A DNA stretch of 64,000 nt from assembly GCF_005405105.1 (NCBI RefSeq), contig NZ_BJDK01000019.1:1-64000 (forward strand). The letters are read 5' to 3'. This document shows, one piece after another, positions 10,323 to 49,612 of this stretch (position 1 is its first letter; each line of letters starts with the position of its first letter). Both the position numbers and the translations under genes were made by a program. The notes under the pieces are model-generated. The model saw only the letters and a list, made by a program, of their open reading frames with translations, searched no databases and was not told the origin of the DNA. The DNA comes from Lactiplantibacillus dongliensis (lineage in GTDB: Bacteria > Bacillota > Bacilli > Lactobacillales > Lactobacillaceae).

Positions 10323-11210
10323 ATGAATGAGCGCGATTTAAAATACTATTGTCACTTAGTCGAGAGCGGCAACTACACGGCCACGGCCAAACACTTTCAA
10401 GTGACCCAGCCCGCCATTTCGGCTGCTTTGAAACGGTTAGAAACCCAATACGGCACCCAGCTATTAAGCCAAGCCAATCATCGCGCCCGCTTAGTCACGA
10501 CCGCTGCCGGTCAAGTCCTATATATTCGCGCGCGCAAGCTCATTCAAGAATTCGCTCAAGTAGCCTTAGACGTCCAGCACGCCGATGATCAAAAGGTTCG
10601 ACTAGGATTTTCACATAACGCCGCCAGTATTTGGTTGCCAACAGTCATTGAAACCTTTGCGCATCACCACTTACTGCCAGCTATTGCTACGACCGTCGCA
10701 ATGTCGGAACCTTTATTCGACCAGCTCCATCACCATAAGTTGGACGCTGCCATCTTGTCGACCTTACAGCCGATGCAATCAGCAGACTTGCAGGTCTTTC
10801 AATTAACGACCCACCCACTTTGCGTACTCGTTAATCGCCATCACCCGCTCAGCCAGCAATCGATGATCCAAGCGACTGATTTACAACAAGTCCCCATCAT
10901 CGCGCGCTTACCACACTCGTTGCCACGCACCGCTTTAGCACAATATTGCCAGCAGCGACAACTGCAGCCAAATATTATCTACGAGGCCCATTCGAATCAA
11001 TTAGTTGAGAAATTAGTCGCCCGTAATCTCGGCATCGGCTTCGTGATTGCCGGTTCGGTCTCGCTGAGCCAAGACGTCGTGGCCGTGCCATTAAAGTCCA
11101 GTGAAGCAATTACCTGCTACATGCAACTCGTCGTCCGCAAGTCTTTCTTACCAACGGCCCGACAAGTTCATTGCATTAGCTTACTCAAACAGATTCCAAC
11201 CCAAGGATAA
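10323..11210 (+). CDS. LysR-type transcriptional regulator
   Basis: 295 residues. The N-terminal winged helix-turn-helix (YYCHLVESGNYTATAKHFQV, then TQPAISAALKRLE) is typical of LysR, and the rest fits the periplasmic-binding-like effector domain. The ATG follows GGGGAGG. It sits directly after the dicarboxylate transporter and probably controls the divergent reductase/transporter promoters in response to an organic acid (inference from position). Confidence 0.9.
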   Translation: MNERDLKYYCHLVESGNYTATAKHFQVTQPAISAALKRLETQYGTQLLSQANHRARLVTTAAGQVLYIRARKLIQEFAQVALDVQHADDQKVRLGFSHNAASIWLPTVIETFAHHHLLPAIATTVAMSEPLFDQLHHHKLDAAILSTLQPMQSADLQVFQLTTHPLCVLVNRHHPLSQQSMIQATDLQQVPIIARLPHSLPRTALAQYCQQRQLQPNIIYEAHSNQLVEKLVARNLGIGFVIAGSVSLSQDVVAVPLKSSEAITCYMQLVVRKSFLPTARQVHCISLLKQIPTQG

Positions 11211-11246: not shown

Positions 11247-11278
11247 GTCACAGTTTGTTCACAGGCCGCGGCTATACT
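11247..11278 (+). promoter_or_regulatory. promoter of sRNA-like unit 1 with tandem TCACA boxes
   Basis: GTCACA (11247) and TTCACA (11258) are spaced 11 bases start to start, and a -10 TATACT lies at 11273. A normal -35 is missing, suggesting activator dependence. The second box is seven bases plus GG before the -10, exactly as in unit 2 at 13822-13853. The layout resembles PhoP-type direct repeats. Confidence 0.5.
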
Positions 11279-11284
11279 TTAGGC

Positions 11285-11430
11285 ATAGTCAATTAAGGAA
11301 CGCCCCATTCCCGAACGACATCCTAACTTTAAAATTCATTGACGCCCCCAAGTAATGAATTGTGTGTGTGATACCCTAACTTTAAAGTTTTATCCCTTTT
11401 TCCACCATTCTTCCCCGGATGGTGGTTTTT
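11285..11430 (+). ncRNA. sRNA-like transcription unit 1 (C-rich loops)
   Basis: About 146 nt with no credible reading frame. A hairpin with stem AATTCATT/AATGAATT (11333-11361) presents the loop GACGCCCCCAAGT. A small AACTTTAAAGTT palindrome follows, then an intrinsic terminator with stem CCACCAT/ATGGTGG, a C-rich loop and a T-run at 11426-11430. Two relatives at 13860 and 14386 keep the same order of elements. C-rich loops of this kind could pair with Shine-Dalgarno sequences of target mRNAs (inference). The start is estimated from the -10. Confidence 0.6.
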
Positions 11431-11431
11431 A

Positions 11432-11560
11432 GAGTGTGAGGTCCAACGGGTGCCCCTGAGCATTGCCTAGCTAGTCAATGATACCGATGAACTGTCCGGA
11501 ATTATTGACTGGCGTAGCAAGCGTAGTCGCCAGCTTTGCCGAACACGTTTCGGCAAATTC
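11432..11560. repeat. structured ~125-bp repeat, copy A
   Basis: Shares with copies B (14017) and C (14155) the blocks GAGCATTGCCTAGCTAGTCA, GCGTAGCAAGC and a final hairpin TTGCCGAA..TTCGGCAA. A second stem pairs GTCAATGAT with ATTATTGAC. It begins immediately after the terminator of sRNA-like unit 1, as copy B does after unit 2. Confidence 0.75.
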
Positions 11561-11769
11561 ACAAAAAAGCCGCTGTCACTAGCACTACTTAGGCCTCAAC
11601 AGTCCTAAAATCTCCCTTTTACCACAATTTTCTAACCCGTTTAGTAAGTCCGCACCCCAATCCAACCCATTAGCTCACCTAACAAAGTCCCCATCACACC
11701 GGCATTTCGTTGACCAACTACAACATCCTATCGTAAGCTGGCACTACTTTAAAGATGGGGGAAATTCAT
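11561..11769. other. intergenic leader of the amidohydrolase gene
   Basis: C- and A-rich, without an open frame or clear repeat. It includes the GGGGGAA ribosome binding site of the amidohydrolase; no promoter could be picked with confidence. Confidence 0.4.
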
Positions 11770-12951
11770 ATGTCTAAAACTACATTCAAGAATTGCCAGT
11801 TATTCGACGGCGCCCATGACGCCATTCAAGCTAATAGTTGGTTCACGGTTAATGATACTGGTCGCATTACCGCGATAGGGACCGGGACCGCGCCAAGCAG
11901 TGACCACGTTGTTGATCTCAATGGCAAATATGTCATGCCGGGGTTGATCAATGCTCACACGCACATCACGATGGACCCCAAAGTCGGCAGTGGCGACACT
12001 GGCGTCGATGAAGTCACGGCGACGGTCCGCGCCGTTCAAAATTTACATGAACTCTTAAAATCAGGTGTAACGTATATTCGCGAATGCGGCTGTACATTTA
12101 ACATCGACGTCGCACTTGAGAAACTACGCGCAACTGGTAAATTAACCAAGATTCCCAACATTTTACCGTCTGGCCAGCCATTTTCAATGACGGGTGGTCA
12201 TGGTGACTTGCCAAACTTCGGCAAACTAGTCGATTCACCAGACGAAATGCGTAAAGCCGTGCGGACGGCCCTGCGTGATGGCGTCAAAGCGGTCAAACTC
12301 ATGGCAACCGGTGGCGTCATGACCCCTGGTGACTTTATGGATGATCCGCAATTGACCATTGAAGAAATGTCAGTCGCGGTCGCCGAAGCCCATCACAAGG
12401 GTAATATTGTCGCCGCCCATGCGGAAGGCAATCCCGGCATCTATAACGCCATCAAAGCCGGCGTTGATTCGATCGAACACGGCTGTTACGTCACCGATGA
12501 CGAGATCGACATGATGCTCGATCAAGGCACTTACTTGACACCCACCCTAGTCGCCGCTTGGACGATTCCTGAATTTGGCCCGGGTAAGTTACCCGACTGG
12601 GAAGTCAAAAAGTCCGCCGATGCCTGGGGCGATATTTGCGTCAACATCGAACATGCTCGTCAACGCGGCGTAAAAATCACGTTGGGAACCGATGCCGGTA
12701 CGCCCTATAATGACTTCTCAATGACGCCAGTTGAATTCGAATTAATGGTCCGTAATGGTGCGCCGAACTTTGCTGCCTTACAGACCAATCAAAATTCAGC
12801 GGCGTTATTAAACATCGCCGATGATTATGGAACGCTAGCCGAAAATAAAATTGCGGACTTCTTAGTGTTAGACCGCGATCCGTTAGCGGACGTCAAGGCC
12901 GTCCAACAATTAGACAAGGCCGTCTATAAAGCAGGCGTCCAAGTGTATTAA
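11770..12951 (+). CDS. amidohydrolase (imidazolonepropionase/prolidase-like)
   Basis: 393 residues from the ATG at 11770 (GGGGGAA upstream). Metal ligands of the amidohydrolase superfamily are visible in order: HTH in GLINAHTHITMD (about residue 63), the lysine of VKLMATGG (about 178), His in AAHAEG and SIEHG, and Asp in LGTDAG. It therefore should carry a binuclear metal centre. The subgroup is that of Xaa-Pro dipeptidase/imidazolonepropionase-related cytosolic hydrolases; the substrate is unknown. It is monocistronic, with a terminator at 12963-12994. Confidence 0.85.
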   Translation: MSKTTFKNCQLFDGAHDAIQANSWFTVNDTGRITAIGTGTAPSSDHVVDLNGKYVMPGLINAHTHITMDPKVGSGDTGVDEVTATVRAVQNLHELLKSGVTYIRECGCTFNIDVALEKLRATGKLTKIPNILPSGQPFSMTGGHGDLPNFGKLVDSPDEMRKAVRTALRDGVKAVKLMATGGVMTPGDFMDDPQLTIEEMSVAVAEAHHKGNIVAAHAEGNPGIYNAIKAGVDSIEHGCYVTDDEIDMMLDQGTYLTPTLVAAWTIPEFGPGKLPDWEVKKSADAWGDICVNIEHARQRGVKITLGTDAGTPYNDFSMTPVEFELMVRNGAPNFAALQTNQNSAALLNIADDYGTLAENKIADFLVLDRDPLADVKAVQQLDKAVYKAGVQVY

Positions 12952-12962
12952 ACTAAGGCATT

Positions 12963-12994
12963 AAAAAAGATTGGGCTAGCGTCCAATCTTTTTT
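12963..12994 (+). terminator. intrinsic terminator of the amidohydrolase gene
   Basis: AAAAAAGATTGG pairs with CCAATCTTTTTT across an 8-base loop; the T-run ends the stem. Confidence 0.85.
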
Positions 12995-13076
12995 GATAGC
13001 CACTATTCAGTAGGCAAACGTCACAAAATTTGCTAGAATACCCCTTAACAATTAAAACTTGAAGGGGGAACCCACT

Positions 13077-13769
13077 TTGTTCTTTTTTGACCCAACTTAC
13101 TTTCTCGTCATTATCGGCTTAATCATCTCGATGGCCGCTTCCAGCTACGTTAACCGCACGTTCCATCATTATGATAGTTACCGTAGCCAAAGCAACCAGA
13201 CCGGGAGCGATGCGGCCCGCTTTATCTTATCGCAATCTGGTATTCAAGATGTCGGCGTCCAGGCCATCAGTGGCGACTTAACTGATAATTACAACGGCCA
13301 GACTAAGGTACTCAGCTTGTCTGAATCTACCGCCAACTCAACTTCAGTTGCCGCAATTGGTGTCGCGGCGCATGAATGCGGACACGCGGTTCAAGATCAC
13401 GTCAATTATTGGCCGATGCGCTTACGAACGGCCTTAGTTCCCGCCGCCAATCTCGGGTCAATGTTATCATTACCAATAATCATCGTCGGGGTCTTATTGA
13501 GTTACAACACAACGTTAATTCATATCGGAATCTTCTTATTCTCGTTAGCGTTACTTTTCCAACTAGTCACCTTACCCGTAGAATTCAATGCGTCCCGGCG
13601 TGCTTTAAAGATTTTGTCAGATGGTCAAGTCCTAACGCCAACCGAAGTGCCGATGGTTCGCAAAGTTTTAGTCGCAGCGGCGCTAACTTATGTTGCCGCG
13701 GCGCTATCGACTTTCCTACAACTCTTGCGGCTGGTGCTCTTATTCGGCGGCAATCGCGACAACGATTAA
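13077..13769 (+). CDS. membrane zinc metallopeptidase, YugP-like
   Basis: About 230 residues. I place the start at the TTG at 13077 because AAGGGGG lies eight bases upstream; the frame from 13059 would include it. There is an N-terminal membrane segment, the zinc motif AAHECGHAVQ (HExxH) at about residue 105, and two or three C-terminal membrane segments, matching the neutral zinc metallopeptidase family of YugP. The role of this family is not well defined. It lies between two sRNA-like regions and has no operon partner. Confidence 0.88.
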   Translation: MFFFDPTYFLVIIGLIISMAASSYVNRTFHHYDSYRSQSNQTGSDAARFILSQSGIQDVGVQAISGDLTDNYNGQTKVLSLSESTANSTSVAAIGVAAHECGHAVQDHVNYWPMRLRTALVPAANLGSMLSLPIIIVGVLLSYNTTLIHIGIFLFSLALLFQLVTLPVEFNASRRALKILSDGQVLTPTEVPMVRKVLVAAALTYVAAALSTFLQLLRLVLLFGGNRDND

Positions 13770-13821
13770 AAGTTAGCTTAACAAATGCTTAGGGATTTTT
13801 TCACGACATTGCACCAGTTCG

Positions 13822-13853
13822 TTCACATATTCTTCACAGGCACTCGGTATGAT
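13822..13853 (+). promoter_or_regulatory. promoter of sRNA-like unit 2 with tandem TTCACA boxes
   Basis: Two TTCACA hexamers (13822 and 13833) are 11 bases apart start to start, and a -10 TATGAT lies at 13848. No good -35 is present. The arrangement and distances match the promoter of unit 1. Confidence 0.55.
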
Positions 13854-13859
13854 AGCATC

Positions 13860-14012
13860 ATAGCAATTGAGGTAAAGCTCATTGTTACTATCTACAACCT
13901 AAAATTTTTCATTTACTCCTCCAAAGTAATGAAATTAATAACGTCAGGTGACTCCCCATCACCTGACTACCCTACTCCTTTTTCCACCGTATCCCCGTAC
14001 GGTGGTTTTTTT
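13860..14012 (+). ncRNA. sRNA-like transcription unit 2 (C-rich loops)
   Basis: About 153 nt. Hairpin 1 (13907-13934) has stem TTTCATT/AATGAAA and loop TACTCCTCCAAAGT. Hairpin 2 (13943-13967) has a perfect 9-bp stem GTCAGGTGA/TCACCTGAC and loop CTCCCCA. The terminator (13984-14012) has an 8-bp stem CCACCGTA/TACGGTGG, loop TCCCCG and T7. All three loops are C-rich. Loop CTCCTCC is complementary to GGAGGAG Shine-Dalgarno sequences. There is no coding frame with a ribosome binding site. It is homologous to unit 3 in hairpin 1 and to unit 1 in its terminator. Confidence 0.7.
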
Positions 14013-14016
14013 GTAG

Positions 14017-14147
14017 AGTGAGAGGCAAAGTGGGTTGGTGACGAGCATTGCCTAGCTAAATCAATTATCCGGTGGGCTTCCGGATGGTTGACTTAGCGTA
14101 GCAAGCACAGTCACCAGCTTTGCCGAACACGTTTCGGCAAGTTTGAA
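14017..14147. repeat. structured ~125-bp repeat, copy B
   Basis: Starts five bases after the terminator of sRNA-like unit 2. It has the shared blocks GGTTGGTGACGAGCATTGCC and GCGTAGCAAGC and the hairpin TTGCCGAA..TTCGGCAA. Its middle stem uses ATCCGG..CCGGAT, different in sequence from copy A but in the same place. Confidence 0.75.
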
Positions 14148-14154
14148 GCAAATG

Positions 14155-14283
14155 CCTGAGAGAGCCAACGGGTTGGTGACGAGTATTGCCTAGCCAGTCA
14201 ATGATGTCGGTGACCTTCCGGCATTGTTGGCGTGGCGTAGCAAGCGGAGTCGCCAGTTGGATCGAACGCGTTTCAGCCAACTA
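14155..14283. repeat. structured ~125-bp repeat, copy C
   Basis: Tandem to copy B. The final hairpin has the stem GTTGG/CCAAC where copies A and B have TTGCC/GGCAA, a paired change that keeps base pairing. The block GGTTGGTGACGAGTATTGCC is shared with B. Confidence 0.75.
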
Positions 14284-14350
14284 GCCCCCAAAAAACGACC
14301 GGCAGTTTAAACGAAAACTTTACAATTTCCATAACTTAACACATATCACT

Positions 14351-14379
14351 TTAACTTTTACCCACCAAGTCGTTATACT
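14351..14379 (+). promoter_or_regulatory. promoter of sRNA-like unit 3
   Basis: TTAACT, a 17-base spacer and TATACT form a housekeeping-type promoter. The tandem TTCACA boxes of units 1 and 2 are not clearly kept. Confidence 0.6.
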
Positions 14380-14385
14380 AGGAAC

Positions 14386-14526
14386 ATGGTAGTTGAACTT
14401 GTCACTCAATTACCATAATCTTTTTCATTTACTCCTCCAAAGTTAATGAAAAATTAGTTTCGTTGGGCACTCCAACCTAACGAAAAGAACTACTCCTTTT
14501 GCCGTCGCTTAACAGCGATGGTTTTT
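14386..14526 (+). ncRNA. sRNA-like transcription unit 3 (C-rich loop)
   Basis: About 141 nt. A 5' hairpin pairs GGTAGTTGA with TCAATTACC. The conserved hairpin (14421-14453) has stem TTTTTCATT/AATGAAAAA and the loop TACTCCTCCAAAGTT, nearly identical to unit 2. A third imperfect hairpin (14458-14485) shows ACTCC in its loop. The terminator (14502-14526) has stem CCGTCGCT/AGCGATGG and T5. It ends about 80 bases before the hydrolase gene. Confidence 0.68.
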
Positions 14527-14605
14527 ATTTTTACTTTCAGAAAACTTGCAATTCTAAAACCGGCAAGCGTATGATAATCGAGGAAGCTTGATAAGGAGTG
14601 ATTAC

Positions 14606-15544
14606 ATGAAGAAGCGTAGTTGGGTCGCGGCATTAGCGACGCCCCTAACGTTATTTACCGCCACGCTGTTAGCTAGTGAAAAGTTATATAACTTTGCTTT
14701 CAAACGGGTCGATTACGTCCCTGAAACTTCGGCTGACAAACAAAAGTACGCGGATGCTTATTGGGCTTACGTCAACTGGTTATATCGGCAGCCGATTCAA
14801 AAGTGGCAATTGAACCTGGGCGATGCTGAAAACCGTCTCGTGGCGCAATATGTCCCGGCTAAGGCCAATAGTCGTAAAACGGTTATTATTTCACACGGCT
14901 ATAAAGGCGACGGCGAAACCATGGCGAATTACGCCTACATGTTCCATAACATGGGCTATAACGTCTTGTTGCCAGATGATCGTGGTCATGGTAAAAGTGC
15001 CGGCAAATATATCAGTTTTGGCTGGCAAGATCGGCGCGACTACCTTGGTTGGGTCGATCAAGTCATTAAGACGGTCGGCAAGTCAGCCGAAATCGTCCTC
15101 TTTGGTGTCAGTATGGGTGGGGCCACCGTTGAGATGATGAGCGGTGAAGAATTACCACCACAAGTAAAAGCCATCATCGCCGACTGTGGCTATACCAGTA
15201 TTGAAGAAGAATTAGCTTACTTATTGAAACGGCAATTTCATTTACCGAAATACCCATTTGTGCCAATTGTTAGCTTTATCAATCGCCACCGTATGGGTTA
15301 TTTCTTAAGCGATGTCAGTTCTGTTGAACAGTTACGCCATAATAAGTTACCAATCTTCTTCATTCATGGTGAAAAAGATGTCTACGTCCCCAGTTGGATG
15401 TTGAAGAAAAACTACCGTGCAACAACCGCACCTAAGATGATGTGGCAAGTGCCGAATGCCACGCACGCGGAAAGCTTTTGGATTGGCCCCGCGGCTTACG
15501 AAAAGCATGTGAGTGCCTTTTTGAATCGTTATCTAGACGACTAA
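14606..15544 (+). CDS. alpha/beta hydrolase (membrane-anchored)
   Basis: 312 residues from the ATG at 14606 (AAGGAG upstream). One N-terminal hydrophobic segment (about 5-25) suggests membrane anchoring. The alpha/beta-hydrolase fold is shown by VIISHGYKG, the nucleophile elbow GVSMGG (Ser about residue 170), FFIHGEKDVYVP with the acidic residue, and the catalytic His in ATHAES. The substrate is unknown; similar Lactiplantibacillus proteins are annotated as cell-surface hydrolases. Monocistronic, followed by a strong terminator. Confidence 0.88.
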   Translation: MKKRSWVAALATPLTLFTATLLASEKLYNFAFKRVDYVPETSADKQKYADAYWAYVNWLYRQPIQKWQLNLGDAENRLVAQYVPAKANSRKTVIISHGYKGDGETMANYAYMFHNMGYNVLLPDDRGHGKSAGKYISFGWQDRRDYLGWVDQVIKTVGKSAEIVLFGVSMGGATVEMMSGEELPPQVKAIIADCGYTSIEEELAYLLKRQFHLPKYPFVPIVSFINRHRMGYFLSDVSSVEQLRHNKLPIFFIHGEKDVYVPSWMLKKNYRATTAPKMMWQVPNATHAESFWIGPAAYEKHVSAFLNRYLDD

Positions 15545-46522: not shown

Positions 46523-47344
46523 TTAACGATGTTGATTCAAATAAGTCACGACATCGCGACCGAAGTGATTCATGCCACGGTATTGCTGATACTGGTTCCC
46601 ACTTTGTGCCAAGACAACGATGCTGTAAACACCGTGTTTAGTTTTAAAGAGAGCTGCATCGTTTTGAACGCCTTTATCTGGATATTCACCCGTTTTATTG
46701 TAGACGGTCGCCCGCTTGACCAGCGCCGGTAACTTACTGTGATTACGACAACCCTTTAATAACGTCAGCATTTTCCGGTCATAGGTCCGACCTAACAGCC
46801 GGTGCCGATAAACGCGAGTCAAGAAATGCGTTAAGTCCGATACTGACGTGTAGTTATCATGCCCGCGCCGCAACGCTTGCGTATCTAGCAAATGCCGTGC
46901 TAACATTGTCTGCTTAAAATGAAACGCCCTAATCGTCTGATTAACTGCCCTTAGACCGCCAGCCCGTTTGATCAAACGATTGGCCGCCGCGTTATCAGAG
47001 TTGTGAATCATTAATTTTAAATCTCGCTGATTTTGAGCCGTCAATCTGAACCGATGTCGCTGCACCCGGCGATAAACCGCCAGCATGATGTAGACTTTAA
47101 TCGTACTAGCCGCGCGTTGCCGCCCGACTTTGGTATGACCAGTCTGCACACTGACTGGCCGTTGACCTAGGCGCGTCACTTTAACCGACCAGCGACCACC
47201 CATGGGCTTTAGGTCCCGTTTGGCTATTTTTTTAATCGCCGTTTGCTCCTGCTTTAAGCTCGTCGCTTGGGCGTTAGTCGACCATAGCCCCAGACCGACA
47301 GCTGCAAGTAGCAGGATTAAAACGGCGCGACTGAATTTTTTCAA
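46523..47344 (-). CDS. secreted class A beta-lactamase-like serine hydrolase
   Basis: 273 residues with a TTG start (GGAGGTC six bases upstream). Signal peptide to about residue 27. The three active-site boxes of penicillin-recognising enzymes are present: SxxK in AASTIKVY, SDN in HNSDNAAANR and KTG in YNKTGEYP. The omega-loop Glu is not obvious, so strong beta-lactamase activity is doubtful. A role in cell-wall metabolism is likelier. First of a leftward run that ends an envelope cluster. Confidence 0.88.
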   Translation of the reverse strand: MKKFSRAVLILLLAAVGLGLWSTNAQATSLKQEQTAIKKIAKRDLKPMGGRWSVKVTRLGQRPVSVQTGHTKVGRQRAASTIKVYIMLAVYRRVQRHRFRLTAQNQRDLKLMIHNSDNAAANRLIKRAGGLRAVNQTIRAFHFKQTMLARHLLDTQALRRGHDNYTSVSDLTHFLTRVYRHRLLGRTYDRKMLTLLKGCRNHSKLPALVKRATVYNKTGEYPDKGVQNDAALFKTKHGVYSIVVLAQSGNQYQQYRGMNHFGRDVVTYLNQHR

Positions 47345-47359
47345 GCGAAGACCTCCATT

Positions 47360-47833
47360 TTAGTAGTAATACCCACGCTTAGGCTGAAACTTAGTCCATA
47401 CGAGGTTTGGCCCCATTTGTGCCGTTTCAATTAAGACTTTATGTGATTTGTGCTTAATTGTACGATGACTCGCACGTATGTCCGGCGCATCCGTAAACTG
47501 ACCCAACACAATTCGATAGGCACGCACAGACCGATTATTTTTGAGGTACATCGTCGATTTATATGCCCGCAGCTTCTTACCGGTCAGCTTAGTCACAATA
47601 TGCCATTGATGGCTTTTCTTCATATACTTTCGAACGGAACGGGGCTTGATCACTAACCGGTAATGATGCCCATCTCCACTTAAAGTCGCATTGTTATAAA
47701 AATACCAAGTACCGCGCAACGATTTTGGCATTGTCCGCGTATAGTCACTCGCTTGCGAGTTAACTGGTGCCACCATCAATCCTATGCCAGCTGTAACAGT
47801 TGCCAGTCCTAATACCCAACCAAACTTTTGCAT
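47360..47833 (-). CDS. small secreted protein, unknown
   Basis: 157 residues; GGAGGTC before the ATG. Signal peptide to about residue 28 (VNSQAS). The mature part starts TMPKSLRGTWYFYNN, a pattern seen in lipocalin-like small extracellular proteins of lactobacilli, and is basic (many K, R and H). It starts 15 bases upstream of the beta-lactamase-like gene, so they are co-transcribed. Function unknown. Confidence 0.75.
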   Translation of the reverse strand: MQKFGWVLGLATVTAGIGLMVAPVNSQASDYTRTMPKSLRGTWYFYNNATLSGDGHHYRLVIKPRSVRKYMKKSHQWHIVTKLTGKKLRAYKSTMYLKNNRSVRAYRIVLGQFTDAPDIRASHRTIKHKSHKVLIETAQMGPNLVWTKFQPKRGYYY

Positions 47834-47851
47834 GCTTCAGACCTCCAAGTC

Positions 47852-48769
47852 TTAATTAATCTGATAGTCCCCTTTAATATGTTGGAAACTCGTCTCTACA
47901 CTGTATTCGCCATCGTCCATATCGACTAACCGCAACGTATACGTCTGTCCCGGTGCGGCGGTGATACTCATCATTTGGAGCTTCGTTGAATACCCGTCAT
48001 TCGTACGTGACTGAACCCGAGCCTCTTCAATCGTTCCCCGTTCATTCGACCACAACCGCCAGTGCCAACCATCGTCAGCTTCAAAGAATTTTGAATAGGT
48101 TACTTCATCATTGTTACGGGTACTACTTTCTTCCGTAGCCGTATCAGTAAATTGTCCCAAAACTTTCTCTTTTTGATCAATACCGTCATCGCCAAAATGA
48201 TAGACACCTTTCAAATGTTGAAAATTCGTTTCAACCGTGTATAACAAGTCATTAGCGCCGACGAACTTCAACGTATAGTGTTGTCCATTCTGCGTCACAC
48301 TTGCCATATTCAGATACCATTCCATCCCGTCAGTCTTACCTTGATCGGATAAGATACGGCCTTTTTCAATCGTGCCTCGTTTAGCGGAAGTTAACTCCCA
48401 ATACCACTGGTCGTCAGTCTGGTAAAACCGTGAATAAGTCACTTCACTATTATCAATCGTTTTAGGATCTTCAATCGCCTTTTTACCCTCCATCGAATCC
48501 AGTGTCCGAACTAATTCATGATTGAGCGGCTTAACATCCTTAGTTTCACGCGCCGTACTCGTTACTGCGGTACTACTGCTACCAACCGAACTAGCCGTCG
48601 ATACTGATGACGAACTACTACTGCTGCTGACAGCGGCATGACTTGATGCCGTCGTAGGTTGTGTCTGGTTATCACTCGACGCCCCCATCCAAAACAAGCC
48701 TACTAAGAAGATCATCGCACAAAGTCCCATTCCCAGTAGCACCCACAAGATCCATAATCCTTTTTTCAT
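47852..48769 (-). CDS. membrane-anchored extracellular protein with a duplicated domain
   Basis: 305 residues from the ATG at 48769 (GGAGGAGC upstream). One N-terminal helix (about 5-30), then a Ser-rich linker (about 40-75), then two homologous domains of about 90 residues: compare EVTYSRFYQTDDQWYWEL with EVTYSKFFEADDGWHWRLWS, and the shared GTIE and GQ.YTL.. motifs. It could be an envelope sensor or binding protein. It precedes the small secreted protein by 18 bases, giving a three-gene operon. Confidence 0.75.
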   Translation of the reverse strand: MKKGLWILWVLLGMGLCAMIFLVGLFWMGASSDNQTQPTTASSHAAVSSSSSSSSVSTASSVGSSSTAVTSTARETKDVKPLNHELVRTLDSMEGKKAIEDPKTIDNSEVTYSRFYQTDDQWYWELTSAKRGTIEKGRILSDQGKTDGMEWYLNMASVTQNGQHYTLKFVGANDLLYTVETNFQHLKGVYHFGDDGIDQKEKVLGQFTDTATEESSTRNNDEVTYSKFFEADDGWHWRLWSNERGTIEEARVQSRTNDGYSTKLQMMSITAAPGQTYTLRLVDMDDGEYSVETSFQHIKGDYQIN

Positions 48770-48919
48770 AAGCTCCTCCAAAATTAGCTGGTTTTAATGT
48801 CGTGATAATTATAGCAAAAATAACCATACGGGAACGTCATTATTAAAGAAAACGGTCTGACCAACGTTAAGTCTGCTAAAATAGCCATAAGGGGAATTTA
48901 AAGGAGGAGTTTGTTACAT

Positions 48920-49612
48920 ATGAAAAAATTAACCACATTACTCGCATTAGGTGCTATCACTGGGGGCTTAGCTTGGGCGCAACCGTCTAAAGCCGACACG
49001 ACCCCAGCCAAGACCACAACTGCCAAAACAACTAAAAAAGTAACCAAAAAGAAAAAGGCTAAACATCATTACTTATTAGTCATGGGTCACGGGGCTGGCG
49101 ATCCTGGCGCCCGCGGTCAAGGAACAACTGAGGCCACCTTTATGCGGCAAAAGTTGATGCCTAAGTTAGCAAAATACGCGAAGAAGATTAAAAAGAGCCA
49201 CGTGACGATTTATAATCCTAGCCACAACATTGTCCGTGATACGTTAGTCTTCCATAAGGGGTCCTACAAGATCAAGAAACATACGACCGTCATTATGTTC
49301 CATCTCGACGCCACCACCAGTGCCTATGCGCACGGCGGCCATGTGATTATTCACAAACGCAAGCCCACTAAACGTGACGTTAAGCTCCGGAAAGTTATTA
49401 AACAATATGTCGGTTTGAACCCCGCCAACCACGGCTATAGCTTCCGCACCAACTTACGGAATTGTAACGTTTTACGTAAACGCGGCATCGACTACAGCTT
49501 GATTGAGACCGGCTTCATTACTAATAAGTCCGACTTCAAGCACATCAACAAACACTTAGACCAGCTGGCTAAGGGGTACGTTGAAGCGATTGCGAACGAA
49601 AAAATCAAATAA
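48920..49612 (+). CDS. secreted N-acetylmuramoyl-L-alanine amidase (Amidase_3)
   Basis: 230 residues from the ATG at 48920 (AGGAGGA upstream). Signal peptide to about residue 25, then a Lys/Thr-rich basic linker. Zinc ligands of Amidase_3: His in LLVMGHGAGDPGARG, His in IMFHLDA, and the catalytic Glu in SLIETGFITN. It cleaves the amide bond between MurNAc and the stem peptide. The basic linker may bind wall polymers. Divergent from the envelope operon. Confidence 0.88.
   Translation: MKKLTTLLALGAITGGLAWAQPSKADTTPAKTTTAKTTKKVTKKKKAKHHYLLVMGHGAGDPGARGQGTTEATFMRQKLMPKLAKYAKKIKKSHVTIYNPSHNIVRDTLVFHKGSYKIKKHTTVIMFHLDATTSAYAHGGHVIIHKRKPTKRDVKLRKVIKQYVGLNPANHGYSFRTNLRNCNVLRKRGIDYSLIETGFITNKSDFKHINKHLDQLAKGYVEAIANEKIK

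Follow-up and report, generated by a model that had tools for sequence, protein, structure and literature searches.

In streptococci, the csRNAs, a group of small RNAs (sRNAs), are controlled by CiaRH via the promoter repeat TTTAAG-N5-TTTAAG, which is followed ten nucleotides (nt) later by the −10 element (PMC3091779; PMC8186281), and, as far as the accessible parts of these reports describe them, they contain a sequence complementary to the Shine-Dalgarno (SD) sequence that is in 53 of 61 cases accompanied by CAU, the complement of the start codon (PMC3091779). In Listeria, several UCCC sites of the sRNA LhrC bind upstream of the start codon of lapB in a system that, according to the accessible part of its description, needs LisR (PMC4132741). 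Here we describe a set of comparable elements in a stretch of 64,000 nucleotides from Lactiplantibacillus dongliensis (contig NZ_BJDK01000019.1, positions 1 to 64,000), termed the window, whose host genome G000 comprises 3.1 Mb in 71 contigs. An initial annotation had placed three sRNA-like units at positions 11285, 13860 and 14386 and had proposed that they constitute a redundant family of SD-complementary sRNAs. All three were found at these places, and we consider it probable that they encode two-component-controlled, multicopy and trans-acting blockers of translation initiation, which resemble csRNAs and LhrC and yet are neither of the two. This view is built on sequence comparison, which reveals the anatomy of the genes, their covarying helices, a shared promoter box, their conservation and their complementarity to start regions. 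The open-licence literature did not provide any description of lactobacillus sRNAs of such type, in agreement with the annotation, which had known of none for this set, and the accessible parts of two papers on lactobacillus sRNAs (PMC9436029; PMC8249650) contain nothing that is tied to the family.

Anatomy of three predicted sRNA genes

The units, which are all located on the plus strand, share the layout that had been outlined in the annotation: the −10 element is followed by hairpin 1, whose loop is rich in C, by additional hairpins and by one that resembles a terminator. Each would constitute a free-standing sRNA gene of about 140–150 nt, whose start is inferred from the −10 element. In unit 2, an exact TTCACA-N5-TTCACA repeat (13822–13838), identified in a genome box scan and by alignment, precedes by 9 nt the −10 element TATGAT (13848–13853), which is kept in the promoter alignment. 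The predicted sRNA of about 150 nt (13860–14012), assigned to class A2, is recognized with 103.6 bits over 13900–14011 by the covariance model R1 introduced below. Its hairpin 1 (13907–13934) reads TTTCATT-T-ACT[CCTCCAA]AGT-AATGAAA, with a 5′ arm and loop that we interpret as anti-AUG and anti-SD sequence, and is succeeded by hairpin 2 (13943–13967) with the C-rich loop CTCCCCA and a covarying stem, the linker CTACTCCTTTTT (13972–13983), a second anti-SD-like stretch that is unpaired in the fold and corresponds to invariant alignment columns, and an intrinsic-terminator-like hairpin (13984–14005) with a TCCCC loop and a T run extending to 14012.

Unit 1 is preceded by the box GTCACA-N5-TTCACA (11247–11263), a presumed response-regulator site that was found with one mismatch in the genome box scan and in the class-B promoter alignment. 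Its −10 element TATACT (11273–11278), located 9 nt past the box, was assigned from sequence and the same alignment, and a consensus promoter scan did not call this promoter. The predicted sRNA of class B, with a length of about 147 nt (11285–11431; R1 89.5 bits over 11327–11431), contains a hairpin 1 with the C-rich loop GACGCCCCCAAGT (11335–11359) and an intrinsic-terminator-like hairpin detected in a terminator scan (11402–11425, T run to 11430). In unit 3, the promoter, called by the scan as TTAACT-17-TATACT and also seen in an alignment (−10 element TATACT, 14374–14379), does not contain a TTCACA box. The predicted sRNA of class A3 (about 142 nt, 14386–14527; R1 87.3 bits over 14416–14527) starts with a covarying 5′ hairpin (14388–14414), which is followed by hairpin 1 (14421–14453) with the same putative anti-AUG/anti-SD segment as in unit 2, the covarying hairpin 2 (14458–14485), the linker CTACTCCTTTT (14490–14500) and an intrinsic-terminator-like hairpin (14501–14522, T run to 14526). 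The loops are as previously annotated, and the stem CCACC../..GGTGG is found in units 1 and 2 only. When the loci are aligned, the rows of the window place hairpin 1 of units 2 and 3 slightly more narrowly, at 13908–13933 and 14424–14450. CU-rich C-runs are located at 13916, 13952, 13975 and 13992 in unit 2, four are found in unit 1 and one was scored in unit 3, while the excess of C over G in the units is ordinary for the window (with 3.1, 8.8 and 18.7% of windows being equally high).

Comparison with known RNA families

A scan of the whole window with Rfam did not detect any family at its gathering cutoff, including riboswitches and leaders, as had been left for comparison by the annotation. 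The likeness to csRNAs, as far as these are described in the accessible parts of the reports (PMC3091779; PMC8186281), encompasses the multicopy nature, a direct repeat with a 5-nt spacer just before the −10 element, a nearby terminator and the combination of anti-SD and CAU sequences. The corresponding layout, with the repeat at fixed distance to the −10 element and a terminator within about 250 nt, is seen in units 1 and 2, with unit 3 lacking the repeat, and the csRNA-type anti-SD and anti-AUG sequence is present as TTTCATTTACTCCTCC in units 2 and 3. Conversely, the unit-2 promoters of 19 genomes contain, by eye, TTCACA-type repeats instead of the CiaR box TTTAAG-N5-TTTAAG, and in the available portion of its account a CiaH homologue is reported to be absent from Lactobacillus (PMC3091779). 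Moreover, the anti-start region of S. pneumoniae csRNAs is, in the accessible descriptions, unpaired and placed between two stem-loops, whereas in units 2 and 3 it forms the arm and loop of a hairpin.

LhrC1-5 (RF00616) are similarly multicopy and poor in G, and their control by LisRK corresponds to the two-component control that we propose for the units. Their UCCC-type sites in two loops and a single-stranded stretch, which bind an SD region as stated in the accessible part of the report (PMC4132741), may have a counterpart in the C-runs of units 1 and 2. However, unit 2 reaches only 24.7 bits with the model of this family, whose gathering cutoff is 110, and the LisR-induction element of lhrC5 is by its partial description located upstream of position −53 (PMC4132741), whereas the TTCACA box overlaps with the −35 position. 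When the LhrC model was applied to 250 genomes of the class, we obtained a single weak match and none over the cutoff, and the sequence of this match is unlike the unit family.

The closest Rfam match is Ref84 (RF02846, Enterococcus sRNA 84), with 37.2 bits for unit 2, 28.6 bits for unit 3 and 25.8 bits for a further copy of the family at C1 of the host genome, compared to a gathering cutoff of 52. Ref84 resembles the units in a 5′ part of the form ACAACC..AUUUUUCAUUU, the linker UACUCCUUUU and the terminator, and R1 matches all 12 Ref84 loci that were tried with 27.2–40.0 bits, although in two alignments the agreement mainly concerns linker and terminator. Ref84, whose matches in 61 of 246 genomes come from further families of the order and are frequently multicopy, contains another hairpin that does not expose a CUCCUCC loop, and a TTCACA box was by eye not found in six Ref84 promoters printed in sense. 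It may nonetheless be a true distant relative. Since csRNA, LhrC and Ref84 each fail in a tested defining feature, we have filed the set as a new family of the csRNA/LhrC kind. The putative anti-AUG segment and a box of the type bound by regulators place the units closer to these circuits than the annotation could say; on sequence grounds, the segment in units 2 and 3 and the TTCACA box, which units 1 and 2 share with the majority of the members and which unit 3 lacks, are features that go beyond it.

Conservation and covariation in Lactobacillaceae

Scans of individual features are not decisive in this case. Between positions 11200 and 14600, a simple search found six terminator-like sites where 4.0 are expected and ten promoter-like sites where 4.7 are expected, and a 12-nt loop pattern with up to two mismatches occurs five times in the window, twice exactly, compared to an expectation of 3.85. 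A longer hairpin pattern with the same tolerance yielded six matches in the genome and none when reversed, with unit 2 and the C1 copy being exact and the remaining four looking like chance; units 1 and 3 escape this pattern due to their different loop lengths. With respect to folding, the units show z-scores of −2.40, −5.72 and −7.14 (units 1, 2 and 3) relative to dinucleotide shuffles, with none of 200 shuffles in each case being as good. As far as can be judged from sequence, it is the conservation rather than the simple scans that raises the set of units above chance.

In a DNA search of 31 genomes, unit 2 is matched in all 19 genomes of the same genus and in none of the 12 outside, with identity over 201 bases including the promoter in one of them (G017). 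The hairpin TTCATTTACTCCTCCAAAGTAATGAA is letter-perfect in all 19 loci (18 sister genomes and the window), and the unit-3 core TTCATTTACTCCTCCAAAG is present in 18 of 19 loci, in one of them with the 3′ part CGAATGAA in place of TTAATGAA. The class of unit 1 is more variable, as exemplified by the loop CACTCCCCCAAGT, and reaches five copies in a single 20-kb locus (L045). Counts over related genomes, here and in the following, are not independent events. The annotation had named a lack of loop conservation among relatives as an outcome that would speak against its claim; this outcome did not occur.

Alignments of the unit-2 orthologs (19 rows, 16 distinct) show pairing in 99.8% of cells and a covariation score that was not reached by any of 500 shuffles. 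While all ten pairs of hairpin 1 are invariant in this alignment, six of nine pairs in hairpin 2 have changed on both sides. Among the 18 rows of unit-3 orthologs, where 91.8% of cells are paired, two-sided changes concern 11 of 39 pairs, nine of which are contained in the 5′ hairpin (5 of 9 pairs) and hairpin 2 (4 of 10 pairs); the pair 83-108 of hairpin 2 fails in 13 of the rows, and in hairpin 1 ten of twelve pairs are invariant. Across 27 units from three classes, hairpin 1 shows five invariant pairs out of seven, with one changed on both sides and one on a single side. The assertion of the annotation that the stems vary in sequence and yet remain paired is strongly borne out for hairpin 2 of unit 2 and the 5′ hairpin of unit 3 but is weak for hairpin 1, which appears to be held by sequence and not by pairing alone, because it is nearly invariant while other helices covary. 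This pattern is difficult to reconcile with functionless dispersed repeats or degenerating mobile elements, an origin that might be suggested by several copies lying close together and by an unrelated intergenic repeat after units 1 and 2; with members in other genera also carrying the same promoter box, we regard it as exceedingly unlikely.

To define the extent of the family, we used R1, which was built from 27 of 72 aligned units of three classes, none of them of the C1 type. At E≤10, the model detects seven places in the host genome, the three units and C27:2856, C26:45630, C16:56591 and C1:107735-107926. The match at C1 is composed of two adjoining ones and, as the one at C16, is weak (34 to 38 bits), but the C16 member contains an exact promoter box, located outside of the modelled part, and the C1 member an exact hairpin core. 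The latter (L021, minus strand, about 107700–107930) would encode a longer RNA with the insert GGCATGTGAACGTCCCCCCGCTTATATGA between hairpin 1 and terminator, which is identical across 19 aligned genomes. In the C26 member (L126, G000:C26:45630-45738) and at L046:1724 and L054:3653, the sequence TTCATTCATAGACTCCCCCAAG... is found together with a different conserved promoter region that does not contain a TTCACA box. The search across Lactobacillaceae that had been advised by the annotation recovered matches at E≤0.001 in 93 of 350 genomes and 17 of 40 genera, including all 19 genomes of the same genus that were searched. An exact search for the core, made with an 18-letter pattern and a single genome for every species, found 106 stretches; among the 80 listed ones that were examined, 65 are by title from Lactobacillaceae and 15 from scattered other organisms, a number that by our own estimate is close to the chance expectation. 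The genera listed comprise Lactiplantibacillus, Secundilactobacillus, Lacticaseibacillus, Loigolactobacillus, Paucilactobacillus, Agrilactobacillus, Lapidilactobacillus, Latilactobacillus and Paralactobacillus, in addition to L. selangorensis, metagenome-assembled genomes (MAGs) of Lactobacillus sp. and an L. plantarum strain. Terminators, covarying helices, conservation throughout the genus, the near-invariant loop of units 2 and 3 and the presence of further copies together argue for the proposed family of redundant SD-complementary sRNAs.

A promoter box and its candidate regulator

Among 77 core sites from Lactobacillaceae, 60 have the direct repeat TTCACA-N5-TTCACA with up to two mismatches before the −10 element, compared to none of 15 other sites. 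Ten core sites show four or more mismatches, nine of which look like unit-3 orthologs whereas one is from Lapidilactobacillus. The host genome contains only three exact boxes, two of which precede family members. The third (L114, G000:C22:6070-6086, minus strand) is found in opposite orientation ahead of a lipoprotein gene, presumably PrsA-like. A search for the box alone (KTCACANNTTCTTCACA) identified 103 of 301 genomes of the family, compared to 5 of 301 for the reversed pattern. From these matches a chosen part was read, consisting of 30 loci and 52 regions picked for genus spread (51 new places and the L272 site again), which together contain 83 boxes, 81 of them distinct. A strict C-rich motif follows within 240 nt at 53 of the 81 distinct sites, compared to 66 of 3495 control windows from the same loci, and R1 matches (E≤0.05) are found at 33 of 82 loci that were identified by their box. 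Some sites, such as L246-L258, precede C-rich RNA-like units of other sequence, and the remaining ones are followed by protein genes, are intragenic or present no clear picture. The spacing between box and −10 element is 9 nt in 23 and 7 nt in 18 of the 81 sites, compared to 5 and 6 in shuffles. We have also considered a protein regulon behind boxes with one mismatch elsewhere in the host genome, but many of these boxes (16 regions, counted together with the four other units) are intragenic and no coherent group emerged. At L278, L282 and L284, all from one genus, an exact box precedes the gene of a similar 168-residue protein with a GGAGG start region (MKKFDLADA..., MTKSVFTDTA...), and the regulon may therefore possess a protein member.

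The host genome encodes seven regulators of the OmpR type, and a protein of this kind would suit a direct repeat that is located at the −35 position and has an 11-nt period. Matches of the C10 regulator in the PDB include the receiver chains 6is1 and 6is3 of ArlR, with other regulators scoring similarly. We take this protein to resemble LisR, and the designations LisR-like, PhoP-like, WalR and VanR-like that we use for the regulators are likewise our assumption. For five regulators, the comparison with NCBIfam yielded no model at its cutoff among the top 25 in each case. As a first guess, we propose that the ArlR/LisR-like two-component system activates the units. For two of the seven regulators, the ArlR/LisR-like and the PhoP-like protein, we have compared their presence with that of the box: none of the 23 genomes without the ArlR/LisR-like protein contains a box, a relation that is weak since the 23, of which 20 are listed negatives and three were obtained by elimination, belong to only five genera. 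The promoters of six of the seven OmpR-type regulators (leaving out L131) do not contain a box with zero or one mismatch, a single stretch with two mismatches being located 249 nt before L136. Alternatively, the sRNA family may stand as described and the repeat be the site of PhoP, WalR or another OmpR-type protein responding, for example, to phosphate signals. This possibility, which is compatible with the remainder of our interpretation, deserves serious attention in light of the number of candidates and of the fit of TTCACA to a PhoP box as we assume it to be, but it appears somewhat less plausible than its opposite. It is opposed, if weakly, by the lack of boxes in genomes devoid of the ArlR/LisR-like protein and by the PhoP-like protein, for which the box-bearing members of g119, g121, g115 and g167 gave no match at E≤1e-75, both observations being limited by thresholds and shared ancestry.

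Complementarity to start regions and candidate targets

In both unit 2 and unit 3, the 5′ arm and loop UUUCAUUUACUCCUCC of hairpin 1 exactly complement the SD-plus-start region GGAGGAGUAAAUGAAA, with TTTCATTTACTCCTCC complementing GGAGGAGTAAATGAAA, which comprises the SD sequence, the spacer, the start codon and the second codon, and unit 1 contains a looser version of this segment. Among 35 box-first RNAs with a C-rich core, 29 contain CAT within 9 nt 5′ of the core, compared to 50 of 350 background windows. Since 15 of these 29 do not contain ATG in the 3′ arm and thus no partner in the stem, CAT seems to be kept for an external partner, for which the start codon of an mRNA is the obvious choice. 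Such a conserved triplet would be needless in a simple C-rich decoy. The idea that the RNAs act as sponge for other RNAs or protein instead of blocking mRNAs, which might draw on the several C-rich sites that each RNA of units 1 and 2 contains and on the several copies per genome, is for this reason in our view very improbable.

In search of targets, the 19-nt complement was located with up to three mismatches in 19 genomes, 12 of the genus and seven outside, where matches within the genus are mainly the sRNA genes themselves. A weak candidate in the window is the start region TTTGGAGGAGCTTATGAAA (48764–48782, minus strand; pattern search, three mismatches) of the open reading frame (ORF) 47852-48781, which encodes a predicted exported or membrane protein. 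In duplex calculations with the hairpin of unit 2, this start region is the best of 41 window genes, with −25.3 kcal/mol compared to −22.3 as best value over 20 shuffled RNAs, and it also forms the best duplex with full-length unit 3. For full-length hybrids with the 41 genes, unit 3 reaches −41.0 at best against −36.1 over 20 shuffles, whereas units 1 and 2 are no better than shuffled RNAs. Our explanation is independent of this weak candidate. The ORF is part of a cluster of exported-looking proteins (46523–48781 and 48911–49612), and the divergent gene at 48911 contains a AAAGGAGGAG start region too.

The same calculations bear on a possible role in cis, in which each unit would serve as leader or attenuator for the gene that follows it. 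The clearest case would be unit 3, located about 80 nt before a hydrolase-like gene at 14606 on the same strand, whose start region, with a predicted energy of −18.2 kcal/mol, forms the fourth-best duplex with the unit-2 hairpin among the 41. However, every unit has its own terminator-like hairpin, the relatives at C1, C16, C26 and C27 adjoin other genes, the conserved part reads as generic start-region complement and the window lacks any Rfam riboswitch or leader at cutoff, which renders this assignment unlikely.

In the mechanism that we infer instead, the units would be transcribed as separate sRNAs, in most members upon binding of an OmpR-family response regulator to TTCACA-N5-TTCACA, which would substitute for a −35 element at a distance of about 9 nt to the −10 element, and in case of unit 3 under another promoter. 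The RNA would present several C-rich stretches, in hairpin loops, the UACUCCUUUU linker and sometimes the terminator loop. Upon contact with a target mRNA, hairpin 1 would open and cover the SD sequence together with the AUG, thereby blocking ribosome loading, and several copies might act additively or on overlapping targets.

Different observations weigh against parts of this proposal. With respect to covariation, a measure of further pair types is unexceptional, as 60 of 500 shuffles attain it for unit-3 orthologs and 164 of 500 for the 27 units across classes. Concerning the box, neither unit 3 nor the C26 copy contains it, the seven core sites that differ from it by exactly three mismatches do not exceed chance (with shuffle fractions between 0.08 and 0.215) and the strict C-rich motif is missing at 28 of the 81 box sites, some of which precede protein genes or sit within genes. 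Our assignment of the regulator is a guess: nearly all genomes (278 of 301) contain the ArlR/LisR-like protein, and the promoter of its own gene contains nothing better than four mismatches to the box. Finally, the target prediction suggested by the annotation provided one candidate start region at the chance rate of the pattern search, with ORF 47852-48781 as the only further match in the host genome compared to one match of the reversed control, its string is not listed in 11 other genomes of the same genus and the ORF is outside the six best of 41 genes for full-length unit 2.

On a broader and more tentative level, which we put forward as less likely than not, one two-component system in Lactobacillaceae might have mainly sRNAs as output, with a conserved box behind which differing C-rich RNA bodies were placed in different genera, so that the wiring would be older than the RNA sequences. 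In the Bacilli, csRNA, LhrC, Ref84 and the unit family would then represent lineage-specific forms of a single ancient circuit that connects a regulator with anti-start-site RNAs. Because the search for the box alone recovers RNA genes with unlike bodies, a shared origin with csRNA and LhrC becomes accessible to a comparative test. An anatomy, a promoter box and a model that detects such genes in 17 of the 40 genera searched are now available, and two-component control via RNA in lactobacilli becomes testable.

Intergenic repeats adjoining the units

A diverged intergenic repeat of the form GAGCATTGCCTAGC...GGCGTAGCAAGC... is located in the window at 11458–11557, 14043–14143 and 14181–14282, following units 1 and 2, and its first 14 letters occur three times in the window, compared to 0.32 expected. 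Similar stretches are also found after units in several relatives.

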